From Mesobacillus jeotgali (lineage in GTDB: Bacteria; Bacillota; Bacilli; Bacillales; Cytobacillaceae): a stretch of 64,000 nt of DNA. The notes beneath the pieces are model-generated. The model was not told where the DNA came from. It made no database searches and saw only the letters and a program-made list of their open reading frames with translations. The position numbers were made by a program, and so were the translations under genes. The number at the start of each line of letters is the position of its first letter. Within the stretch, counting starts at the first letter, position 1. Of the stretch, positions 12,206 through 40,885 are shown piece by piece. Location: assembly GCF_900166585.1 (NCBI RefSeq), contig NZ_FVZC01000009.1:1995444-2059443 (forward strand), given 5' to 3'.

Positions 12206-13945
12206 TTATAAACCACACTTTAATTGTGCGTTACAGTTCGTACAAGTATTGCAACCGCCGATTTCCTTTACCTCACCTTTGCGGCAGACCGGGCAAGTGT
12301 TGCCGACTTCAGAGCCGATTGTCACGTTGGTTGAACGCAATTCATTGATCGTGTCTACAAGGACAACATGCTGCTTTTGTTTTTCTTTTTTATCGATTTC
12401 TTCTTCCATTGTGTTCTCTTCTGCTTTCAGCGTCAATACTTGTGAATCGCGGGATCCATCAACATAAACGGTACCACCCTTGGCTCCACCTTTATACAGA
12501 CGCTCATAAACCTTCTCAACCTGTTCAACGCTGTAGCCTTTCGGAGCGTTGACCGTCTTGCTGATCGAGCTGTCAATCCAGCGCTGAATGACACATTGTA
12601 CGTCAGCGTGGGCTTCAGGCGCAAGTTCCATTGCTGATACGAACCAGTTCGGCAGGTTCTCAGGATCAGCATCCGGATTGCGGTCCAGGTACTCCTGGAC
12701 GATATCTGCCTTGACTTCGATGAACTTGCCAAGACGGCCGCTTCGGAAGTAGGAGAAGCTGAAGTAAGGTTCAAGGCCTGTTGAGACCCCAACCATCGTC
12801 CCAGTTGATCCCGTGGGAGCAACAGTCAGCAAGTGCGAGTTGCGAATTCCATTTTCAATGATCGACTCACGAATATCTTCAGGCATTTTCTTCATGAAAC
12901 CAGTGTTTGTGAAAGCCTCGCGAAGTCTGTTTGTCTCTTCTTCAGTTCCACCCTCAAGGAATGGGAAGCTCCCTTTTTCCTTGCCCAATTCTACGGATGC
13001 TCTATAGGCAGAAGTAGCAATTGTTTCAAATACTTTATCAACAAGCTTGTTTCCTTCTTCTGAACCGTATTCTGTTTCACAGTAAATCAAAAGATCATGC
13101 AGTCCCATAACACCAAGACCGACACGGCGTTCGCCAAGAGCTTGTCTCTTATTATCTTCAAGGAAGTAAGGAGTCGCATCAATGACATTGTCCTGCATGC
13201 GGACACCCACTTCTACAGTACGCTTCAATTTTTCAAAGTTAACTGTTTTTGTTTCCTTGTCCGCCATTTCTGCAAGGTTAACAGCAGCAAGATTGCAGAC
13301 AGAATTTGGTGCGAGAGGCTGTTCCCCACAAGGGTTAGTCGCTACAACCTTTTGTCCATATGCCTGTGCGTTTGTCATGTCGTTGGCATTGTCGATGAAG
13401 AAAATGCCTGGTTCTGCTGAATATGTCGCACAGATATTGATCAGGTTCCAAAGCTCTTTCGCTTTGATCTTTCTGTAGGTACGTACTTTATAGCCGAGCT
13501 TTTCCCACTCTCGTACGTCCCCAATTTTATGCCATTCTTCGTTATAAACTTTCATAGTTTCACTATCATAGCTTTCCACGTCCGGGAAGCGGAGTTCATA
13601 TTCAGCTTCATTTTCGACTGCATCCATAAAGTCCTTTGTCAGAGTGACTGAGATATTTGCACCTGTAAGGAATTCTGAATTATGGACTGTATAATTTCCG
13701 CCTGTTGCAAGTTTTTCTTCTGCCGATCTTATGATATCTGCGCTGAAACCACCGTAGCCCGGGATGCTCTTATAGTTGACAATCCCCTGGTACATTGCTT
13801 CTTCCTGAAGTGTCAATGGAGTGAATTTCAATTTCTCTTTTGCCATTTTCTTGATTGACTCGTCGTTTGTGTTTTCAATCAGGAAACGAAGGATCCTTGG
13901 GTTTTGCATTTTTGAAATAATGAATTCTACAATGTCAGGATGCCA
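12206..13945 (-). CDS. nrdJ: B12-dependent ribonucleotide reductase NrdJ, exon 2
   Basis: Encodes the C-terminal 579 residues, starting WHPDIVEFIISK immediately after the intron. The NPCGEQPLAPNSVCNL segment carries the active-site Cys and Glu of the finger loop. The LTVAPTGSTGTM segment is typical of class II reductases. A C-terminal Cys-rich tail (CPVCRKG, CTNCNAQLKC) probably shuttles electrons or binds zinc. The enzyme makes dNTPs from NTPs or NDPs using adenosylcobalamin and no oxygen. Joined to exon 1 after GAT at 15080, the reading frame is restored (D-WHPD) and gives 852 aa, the size expected for Bacillus NrdJ. Function therefore depends on RNA splicing. Confidence 0.95.
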   Translation of the reverse strand, partial: WHPDIVEFIISKMQNPRILRFLIENTNDESIKKMAKEKLKFTPLTLQEEAMYQGIVNYKSIPGYGGFSADIIRSAEEKLATGGNYTVHNSEFLTGANISVTLTKDFMDAVENEAEYELRFPDVESYDSETMKVYNEEWHKIGDVREWEKLGYKVRTYRKIKAKELWNLINICATYSAEPGIFFIDNANDMTNAQAYGQKVVATNPCGEQPLAPNSVCNLAAVNLAEMADKETKTVNFEKLKRTVEVGVRMQDNVIDATPYFLEDNKRQALGERRVGLGVMGLHDLLIYCETEYGSEEGNKLVDKVFETIATSAYRASVELGKEKGSFPFLEGGTEEETNRLREAFTNTGFMKKMPEDIRESIIENGIRNSHLLTVAPTGSTGTMVGVSTGLEPYFSFSYFRSGRLGKFIEVKADIVQEYLDRNPDADPENLPNWFVSAMELAPEAHADVQCVIQRWIDSSISKTVNAPKGYSVEQVEKVYERLYKGGAKGGTVYVDGSRDSQVLTLKAEENTMEEEIDKKEKQKQHVVLVDTINELRSTNVTIGSEVGNTCPVCRKGEVKEIGGCNTCTNCNAQLKCGL

Positions 13946-14221
13946 CGTACATACCGTTCCTTTCGGAATATTTCGCTGCTTTGCAGCCGGACTAGACTAT
14001 ATCATCACCCTCAGCATAATCTGGTAGGGGTCGGGCGCTTGTGAGAGATTATTGTTGGGACTCACTCTCTAGTCGTTGAACCTTCGCCATTACCGTTTGC
14101 CCAATGACGCTTGGCTGCAGATTGTCCAATGCAAGCAATTTTTAGGCCTTCACGCTCACCGTTTCCAGTCACGTTGTGGCTTGCCTGCCTCTAAGGAGTT
14201 CCCTGCAATTCACCCGATTTT

Positions 14222-14872
14222 CTAGTCGTTCATTGTCTGAACGACGCGGACTAGTGCATCTATAAAGTTACTTTCTTTACCATAAGTTTTTTCATGACAG
14301 TTTTTACAGAGTGTGATTCCATTGTTTAAAAGAAATTGCTTTTCAGGGAAAAGCTTTTTAGGATAAATATGGTGAGCAGCAATATCTCTAGAATTAGAGT
14401 TACAACCAGGCATCTTACACCTAAAGTTATCACGAGTATATACTTTTTTACGCCATTCCTTATAGAGTGCAGAATCAGTTATATCAATTGTTTCCACTCT
14501 ATTTTCTTTCAGGTAATTCTTATAACAAGTATAAGTACAAAACCTCTTACCTGAACGGGAATATCCTGAGCGTACCCTTTCAGTAGTTTGACCACACTGG
14601 AAGCATTCAAAGTATACTCGTTTCTTTATCCTAGTCGACTTTATTCTCTCAATGGAAACTGGAGTATGTTTTGTCCCTCTTCTTGGAGCACCTTTATCAA
14701 TTTCATTATGGCCCCTCAACTCCCATCCAAAGAAAAGAATCCGATCTAAAATTGTTGAATAACTTACCCTTAGTTCATTAGCAAGTACAGTATATCCCTT
14801 TCTTTTAACAATGTATTCTTCATATAGCCAATCACGATTGTCGTATATCTCATTGCCCAGTTTAATTGGTTT
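14222..14872 (-). pseudogene. HNH homing endonuclease, main part, after an in-frame stop
   Basis: In-frame continuation of the intron ORF after a TAA codon at 14873-14875. It has a second helix-turn-helix-like segment (DWLYEEYIVKRKGYTVLANE), a CX2C...CX3C zinc-binding stretch (CFQCG...FCTYTC) and a C-terminal HNH nuclease: KVYTRDNFRCKMPGC, then AAHHIYPKK, then LCKNCHEKTYG. Without the stop the whole ORF would be 260 codons. The first usual start after the stop is TTG at 14719, with no proper ribosome binding site, so active enzyme is doubtful. The nuclease core itself looks intact. Confidence 0.85.
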
Positions 14873-15004
14873 TTATCTAATACCAAACCTTCTAAGCCTT
14901 GATTTGATTGTCGTAATTGGCAGCCCTGTTTCTTCAGCTATCTCTTTTAAGCTCATTTTGTCGTGAATATACTTTTGATAAAGAAATTCTCTGGTCAGAT
15001 TCAT
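14873..15004 (-). CDS. N-terminal fragment of the intron homing endonuclease
   Basis: 43 codons from an ATG with AGGAGG, ending at the in-frame TAA. The product MNLTREFLYQKYIHDKMSLK... is a helix-turn-helix (SLKEIAEETGLPITTIKSRL), the usual DNA-binding module at the start of HNH homing enzymes. It is in the same frame as the HNH part that follows. It is probably the remnant N-terminus of one nonsense-mutated gene; a separately made small DNA-binding peptide is possible but speculative. Confidence 0.75.
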   Translation of the reverse strand: MNLTREFLYQKYIHDKMSLKEIAEETGLPITTIKSRLRRFGIR

Positions 15005-15079
15005 GAAACGTCCTCCTTTTAACGAACGTTTGTTCTCACGTTAATCTTACCAGTTTTAACTTAGAATGTCATTTAGTTA

Positions 15080-15898
15080 ATCCGCCAGCATTATCATTTG
15101 CGCACCGCGTCTTGACCCGCCCTGCTCTACTAAATGCGTAAGCTTGGCGATGTCATCAAGCCATGAGACCGAACCGGATGATTTTCCGTTTACGCCTTTG
15201 GCAAGTGTGTTACGCGGCCTTAAAGTCGAACCATTCGTTCCCACTCCGCCGCCGCGGCTCATGATTTCCATGACCTGCTTGCGGTGCTCGGAGATCCCTT
15301 CACGTGAATCTTTTACAAATGGCATTACATAACAGTTAAAGTAAGTAACGTCTGTTTCTGCGCCTGCTCCGTAAAGGACGCGGCCTGCAGGGATAAAGTT
15401 CATGGATACTAGTTCCTGATAGAACTTCTCAAACCATTCCTGGCGCTTTTCTTCCGTTTTTTCAACAGCCGCAAGTCCTGTAGCATTTCGTTTAGCGATT
15501 TGCTCGTAAAATACTTCGAGCGGCTTCTCGATGACATCCAGAGATTTAGTAATCACTCCTGTTGCAGCTTCTTCCGCGTCATCGAGCACTCCTCGGAATT
15601 CTTCATCAACGAGAACCCTCGCCGTTTTGTTCTCCCAATCAATATCTTGTATGAACCCAAGTCCTCGTGCAGGGAACTTTGGATCCTCCTTGATGGTGAG
15701 GACTACAAAATCCCCGTTTGATAGAGTAATTTTTTCAGTGTCTTTAAAAGTGTAGCGATCTAGCATCACTAGTCGGGAAACGCCTTTGTGTGTAAGCTTC
15801 ATATCAGGTGTAATCGGATGAACCTGGGGGAACAACTTTATATCCTCGTTCAGGCTTTCAACATTAAGGCTCATTTTTTGTCCAATAGTAACAGACAT
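15080..15898 (-). CDS. nrdJ: B12-dependent ribonucleotide reductase NrdJ, exon 1
   Basis: N-terminal 273 residues. The start ATG at 15898 follows GAAGGAG. It contains YFNCYVMPFVKDSREGI, with the conserved N-terminal redox Cys, and EIMSRGGGVGTNGSTLRPRN with SRRGAQMIMLAD at the end, where the intron breaks the coding sequence between the conserved D and W codons. Unspliced RNA stops at TAA three bases into the intron. Two NrdR boxes lie upstream. This gene is absent from B. subtilis, which uses NrdEF. Confidence 0.95.
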
Positions 15899-40759: not shown

Positions 40760-40822
40760 ACTTCCTCCGTGCTGATATTTTTGGTTGGCGAACCAAAAAA
40801 TATTTTAGCACCGTGGGGAAGT
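40760..40822 (-). promoter_or_regulatory. Hairpin covering the TnpA ribosome binding site
   Basis: Minus strand: ACTTCC...GTGCT...TTTTTTGGTT pairs with AACCAAAAA...AGCAC...GGAAGT, so GGAGG is inside the stem. Same principle as known for IS200. Confidence 0.65.
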
Positions 40823-40885
40823 TTTTTTAATACCACGCTGAAAGCTTTTTGGAACCCCAGGCATAGCCCGGGGTTTTCATTTCCA

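Follow-up and report, generated by a model that had tools for sequence, protein, structure and literature searches.

The DNA analysed here (64,000 nucleotides of Mesobacillus jeotgali; hereafter the window) contains an interrupted ribonucleotide reductase (RNR) gene, nrdJ. The gene runs from 15898 to 12206 on the minus strand and is interrupted after codon 273 by an insert of 1134 nt; read unspliced, the GAT of this codon is followed by TAA, an immediate stop. An earlier note on this DNA had described a frame broken at MLAD/WHPD by these 1134 bases and had taken the insert for a group I intron inside a B12-dependent ribonucleotide reductase gene. The boundaries (15079..13946) are as described, joining the flanks gives the open 852-aa NrdJ that the note expected, and the match to the group I model RF00028, the joined frame, Pfam and the closest solved structure all agree with this identification. 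The joined protein is a class II reductase by its relation to that solved enzyme, the top PDB match being the B12-dependent 1xje (E 2.3e-68), and the splice junction adjoins the conserved HPDI motif. The parts of the gene are as follows.

15080..15898, minus strand: nrdJ exon 1, 273 aa, ends MLAD (Pfam PF00317 and the start of PF02867)
13946..15079, minus strand: group I intron, 1134 nt; TAA is the first codon past exon 1, the last base is G
13974..14303, minus strand: RF00028 (Intron_gpI) match, 80.7 bits, model positions 1-253
12206..13945, minus strand: nrdJ exon 2, 579 aa, starts WHPD (Pfam)

The covariance search proposed in the note returned RF00028 as a full-model match (14303..13974, E 6.5e-19 in 64 kb, well placed against a gathering score of 50 bits), which is the sole Rfam match within 13850-15180 at E<=0.1. 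Both core motifs that had been pointed out are present, CAACGACTA at 14078..14070 and GATATAGTC at 14003..13995, as are the T closing the 5' exon and the G closing the intron (base 13946). Sequence alone leaves a one-base uncertainty in the junction, as T is the first base of the intron and of exon 2 alike; the P1 pairing, together with the terminal G and the U.G rule, settles it in favour of the earlier placement. The splice aligner favours T and G at junctions, so these two bases are no independent evidence. The following elements were assigned to the ribozyme.

15080..15085, minus strand: GCGGAT, P1 5' strand (exon), with U.G at the splice site
14254..14260, minus strand: GATGCAC, weak candidate P10 partner of the 3' exon GCATC, by inspection
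14246..14253, minus strand: internal guide TAGTCCGC, P1 3' strand and also C-terminal codons of an endonuclease, the same in all 15 introns at site 273
14225..14245, minus strand: P2 hairpin (RNAalifold-based)
14211..14217, minus strand: P3 5' strand (RNAalifold), two pairs with both sides changed
14070..14078, minus strand: CAACGACTA, J6/7 and P7 5' strand (RF00028 alignment), GACTA invariant in 15 introns
14031..14038, minus strand: P3 3' strand (RNAalifold)
14007..14030, minus strand: P8 hairpin (RNAalifold-based)
13995..14003, minus strand: GATATAGTC, J8/7 and P7 3' strand (RF00028 alignment), invariant in 15 introns
13974..13990, minus strand: P9 hairpin (RF00028 alignment; RNAalifold pairs this stretch otherwise)
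13952..13970, minus strand: hairpin past P9 (RNAalifold), three pairs with both sides changed

Helices P3, P4-P6, P7 and P8 were found, the invariant P7 by sequence only. In the RNAalifold consensus of 15 cores, both partners are changed in at least one sequence for 25 of 79 pairs; neither P7 nor the P1 guide varies among these introns, so that no covariation comes from either. In this consensus, which was built without the 5' exon, five invariant pairs join the guide to the 3' exon in place of P1, and the minimum-energy fold of the window core joins the two as well. P1 forms in the predicted folds of three endonuclease-free copies, which were folded with their 5' exon. Compared with 100 shuffles, the window core is only mildly more stable (z -2.04), four of them doing as well. 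A P10 pairing of GATGC with GCATC is possible in the window by eye and is not invariant among the 15 introns.

Almost certainly, the insert is a group I intron with an HNH endonuclease gene that homed into nrdJ and is still spliced, its endonuclease now broken and the intron probably immobile. We infer the splicing chemistry, the endonuclease activity and the present immobility as follows. In the transcript, exon GCGGAU would pair with the guide UAGUCCGC to form P1. A guanosine bound by P7 would attack after the U of the 5' exon, and the freed exon would in turn attack after the terminal G of the intron, thereby joining the exons. The endonuclease gene lies within the P1 loop, as the sequence shows, and ends inside the guide and P2; its product would have driven the spread of the intron to intron-free nrdJ alleles, carrying little flanking exon along. 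In the window strain, the endonuclease gene is interrupted by an in-frame stop; the intron has therefore probably lost its mobility and is presumably still removed from the RNA.

The endonuclease frame, its in-frame stop and the guide are absent from the earlier note. The frame (15004..14222, minus strand) takes up 783 nt or 69% of the intron and is bounded by the 5' splice site and the guide.

15011..15019, minus strand: AAAGGAGGA, Shine-Dalgarno-like, ahead of the endonuclease frame
14873..15004, minus strand: endonuclease part 1, helix-turn-helix (Pfam), 43 codons and an in-frame TAA
14222..14872, minus strand: endonuclease part 2 with HNH (PF01844, E 3.3e-5), closing TAG at 14224..14222

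From its ATG at 15004 the frame reaches the TAA at codon 44 (14875..14873) and is then open to the TAG. The PF01844 match lies near the Pfam cut-off (24.4 vs 21.4 bits), and in the endonuclease of an intact relative both the helix-turn-helix and the HNH are matched by Pfam. A second helix-turn-helix-like and a zinc-ribbon-like stretch are seen by eye in part 2. Ten introns at site 273 bear the endonuclease; only the window copy is broken, the other nine being open from stop to stop, one of them (L083) without an ATG at the usual start. The closest copies are from Mesobacillus. In the named genomes, eight of nine loci with the endonuclease, including all full-length ones, show the site-273 nrdJ junction motifs and the guide.

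These data have to be weighed against other readings of the locus. If the intron were decayed and no longer spliced, nrdJ would be a pseudogene here and a class I enzyme would do its work. The broken endonuclease frame would fit such a state, as would two core bases unique to the window and the uninterrupted class I genes of its genome (large subunit at G000:C7:120172, small subunit at C7:121865, no stops or breaks; a further, weaker small-subunit match lies at C9:1250967). However, the unique bases are confined to the P6 loop, where one is inserted, and to L8, while at every other core position the window has the same base as one relative or more. The joined frame is open over 852 aa, and the constraint on exon 2 is not relaxed: its omega is 0.019-0.044 against 19 same-genus genes (median 0.026 for five carriers of an intron at site 273 and 0.027 for 14 non-carriers, the latter alone spanning the same range). 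Median omegas of the nrdJ exons are 0.015-0.027, which indicates purifying selection on both, strong in exon 2. Since exon 2 would be expected to decay if splicing failed, the low values indicate that NrdJ is kept and that splicing of the window intron is very likely functional; we give the decayed intron hardly any credence. The earlier note had also made dNTP synthesis by this enzyme depend on self-splicing. This holds for NrdJ itself and not for the whole dNTP supply of the cell, which need not depend on nrdJ splicing because the class I genes are uninterrupted. Loss of NrdJ might thus be survivable, and selection nonetheless suggests that the protein is maintained.

The endonuclease, in turn, could still be active if its pieces of 43 and 216 codons worked separately or if the stop were read through. 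The Shine-Dalgarno-like site precedes the first piece, a TTG-start frame of 165 aa holds the HNH, and few other changes have accumulated (dN 0.008 to the G004 copy). We nevertheless regard this as improbable, given that the nine other copies are single frames and that the first helix-turn-helix would be severed. Even less likely is a sequencing error in an intact gene: the stop occurs in one of ten copies, the window's, and is known from one assembly, but this assembly is listed as 100% complete and 0.1% contaminated. We retain the reading of a spliced intron with a broken endonuclease and turn to its match with the exon. GCGGAT and the first two bases of the intron together pair with the guide TAGTCCGC (14253..14246), U.G standing at the cut. 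The guide is constant in 15 of 15 introns at site 273, although the loop between the P1 strands spans about 10 to about 825 bases. The exon hexamer GCGGAT is found in all 15 carriers and in one of 80 non-carriers, which include the badly parsed L104 (Fisher 1.4e-16, overstated since the genes are related); among the 19 other parsed same-genus genes, it occurs in 5/5 carriers and 0/14 non-carriers. At the protein level, all 15 carriers have Ala as residue 272, and the 80 non-carriers have Ala (42), Ser (28), Thr (7), Asn (2) or Ile (1). Alternatively, the match could reflect co-conversion of flanking exon together with the endonuclease target instead of P1 pairing. Identity to the window is raised mainly in the last five codons of exon 1 (0.92 for the five carriers vs 0.67 for the 14 non-carriers); in the five codons before those it is 0.85 vs 0.76. 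But GCGGAT matches the guide base for base, with the U.G pair falling at the junction, and is kept by carriers in nine genera. Both processes can hold at once; co-conversion in place of pairing seems unlikely to us, though less so than the readings above. A long co-conversion tract was considered and dismissed, as raised exon identity lies mainly within five codons upstream.

The match of guide and exon, which the sequences show, suggests that one RNA guide holds codons of the host enzyme fixed. The guide also sits within the last codons of the endonuclease (L-V-R). Among the 66 endonuclease homologues listed, 61 are close (E<=3.8e-70), and VR[VI], encoded by the guide codons, stands near the end in 55 of these; the remaining six end early or differ there. 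At other nrdJ sites a tendency like that at 273 is observed with less force. The commonest exon hexamer occurs in 11/11 carriers and 2/83 others at site 263, in 8/9 and 13/85 at site 265, in 21/21 and 10/74 at site 480, in 2/2 and 3/93 at site 650, and in 6/6 and 2/89 at site 652; the lone carrier at site 264 is uninformative, its hexamer being common to 10/93 others.

The history of the intron can be read from its relatives. Between the window and the G004 copy, dS is 0.047 for the endonuclease and 0.67 for nrdJ, and for four same-genus endonuclease-bearing copies the respective ranges are 0.041-0.219 and 0.65-0.76. Because endonuclease dS is far below nrdJ dS, these comparisons show that the intron has moved between hosts after their nrdJ genes had split. 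Omega of the endonuclease is 0.11-0.38 across ten same-genus pairs, which shows that selection has maintained it, and the window copy seems to have been broken recently. The 15 copies at site 273 comprise nine with an open endonuclease, one with a broken one (the window), four without the frame and one (L106) with an extra loop of about 85 nt and no endonuclease frame. Intron-free alleles, which the note had proposed to look for in relatives, exist: site 273 is empty in 14 of 19 parsed same-genus genes besides the window's. This series fits the homing-cycle model, which is discussed together with its limits in PMC1654191. One mobile intron at one site, with open, broken and absent endonuclease and with empty same-genus alleles, thus forms a natural series on which the homing cycle could be tested within a chromosomal gene of a bacterium.

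RNR genes are well-known favoured hosts of introns and inteins (PMC3653736; PMC3984707), and insertion at conserved active-site codons is equally well known (PMC3943268). The earlier note named no described intron at this NrdJ position, and the open-licence papers listed in our searches likewise yielded no description of it, of any nrdJ intron in Bacillaceae, or of the endonuclease-guide overlap and the crowded host gene. The site may stand uncommented in a database, since RNRdb curated over 100 group I introns from RNR entries (PMC2795772) and a cyanobacterial RNR intron is in print. The nrdE, nrdF and recA introns described for Bacillus species in PMC3984707 are likewise group I introns in chromosomal genes, some of them for RNR; nrdE and nrdF encode class I enzymes, whereas the window intron lies in the class II gene nrdJ, and insertion sites were compared for SPbeta alone. 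The SPbeta bnrdE intron (NC_001884) is also group I (RF00028, 92.4 bits) and lies in the same conserved loop before HPDI. Its exon 1 frame ends ...YADQMG, which corresponds by eye to NrdJ 261, twelve codons upstream of the window site, so that identity of the two sites was rejected on this alignment (261 vs 273). Unlike the window's, it is short and has no endonuclease frame over 70 codons. The cyanobacterial RIR intron also belongs to group I and interrupts an RNR gene on a bacterial chromosome, that of a cyanobacterium (Meng et al. 2007, via PMC12702839); by the title of the article on it, it reportedly contains an insertion sequence element. The nrdJa intein of Azotobacter chroococcum is another self-splicing insert in a class II RNR gene, but there it is the protein that is spliced and in the window the RNA (PMC4465626).

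A phage origin was also considered. Phage endonucleases (PHROG 8446 and others) share the HNH with the window's and, in part, the helix-turn-helix. None of the 23 matching phage records covers 80% of the window endonuclease, and all 23 are below 60% identity; the 20 of these matches that were listed cover 22-37% of it, at the HNH end. With single-place coverage of 80% in 0/110 matching phage records for the core and 0/23 for the endonuclease, this origin was rejected. Endonuclease-like frames at 39 viral-contig loci match only residues 150-260, and none of the 39 has an NrdJ-like frame in the DNA fetched. Three viral matches to the guide pattern showed neither a group I match nor an NrdJ-like frame. 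Plasmids gave two weak partial matches of the intron core.

The interruption of nrdJ is not peculiar to the window. We compared 101 genomes including the window's own, 68 of which have RF00028 matches somewhere at E<=0.001. Of these 101, 93 gave 95 parsed nrdJ genes, with second copies in G032 and G054; left out were G021 (no match), G073, G074, G095 and G097 (weak matches only), G009 (contig edge), G075 (two contigs) and G082 (63% identity). Altogether, 45 of the 95 genes are interrupted. This number includes L104, which has no open joined frame and whose sites, among them one at 480, stand outside the per-site counts. Group I-type introns occur at aa480 (21 genes), aa273 (15), aa263 (11), aa265 (9), aa652 (6), aa650 (2) and aa264 (1), all seven sites falling between codons; a script placed the two introns of L074 by their junction motifs. 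Longer insertions (2.6-2.7 kb) occur at aa460 (L090), about aa481 (L080) and aa526 (L064). The one at 460 encodes a reverse transcriptase (PF00078, E 6.9e-36), and those at about 481 and 526 hold similar long reverse-transcriptase-like frames by eye. A 42-nt insertion in L064 resembles a coding repeat and not an intron.

One endonuclease frame per site was scanned by Pfam. It is HNH at 273 and LAGLIDADG (PF14528) at 263; the frame at 652 has a zinc-finger match below cut-off only and an HNH-like end by eye, and the one scanned at 480 has no Pfam match. The introns at 480, the commonest site, gave no RF00028 match at E<=1 in L063, L075, L096, L101 and L103, yet by eye they show helices and a pairing like P1 that make them look like group I introns (example: L075, 1837-2085 of its reverse complement). 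Seven genes (L074, L077, L083, L084, L086, L093, L097) carry introns at both 263 and 273, and the 30-nt exon between them must serve both splicing reactions. Origin of these two introns by tandem duplication was rejected, since in all seven genes the score of either intron is far higher with copies from the corresponding site of other genes than with its neighbour. The maximum is three introns per gene (L064, L087, L097). We consider it likely that nrdJ acts as an intron trap in these Bacillaceae: seven group I-type sites all fall between codons, three more hold group II-type insertions of 2.6-2.7 kb, and at least two unrelated families of endonuclease have reached the gene; a single gene can carry as many as three introns, and seven genes keep an exon of 30 nt between two of them; and at the window site one DNA stretch serves as both guide and endonuclease C-terminus, tied to the fixed Ala-Asp codons GCGGAT in every carrier seen.

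Apart from the nrdJ intron, the window contains a glycine riboswitch (Rfam RF00504; 22177-22265, minus strand) and a match to RF01405 (STnc490; 40764-40875, minus strand) that is doubtful here, with 56.1 bits against a gathering score of 56. Another group I intron lies at the 3' end of a flagellin gene in the window genome (G000:C8:471096-471507; about 3097-3508 of L062; L002), and a flagellin intron is known from Geobacillus (PMC3984707). The flagellin frame runs into this intron as NQMPQGVLQLLR and a stop, and the 3' exon encodes NQQPQGVLQLLR, also followed by a stop. Because the frame continues in this way, unspliced RNA would already give a full flagellin. Among the 30 flagellin intron loci examined (L002-L031), such a tail is present in 23 and both tails in 13; they were located by protein pattern, which biases them toward likeness. 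No two of the 13 upstream tails share a DNA sequence, and their protein sequences are almost the same; in one, the last residue is K against R in its exon, and at one locus Q ends both. It may be that the flagellin intron contains a replacement for its own 3' exon that is under selection.
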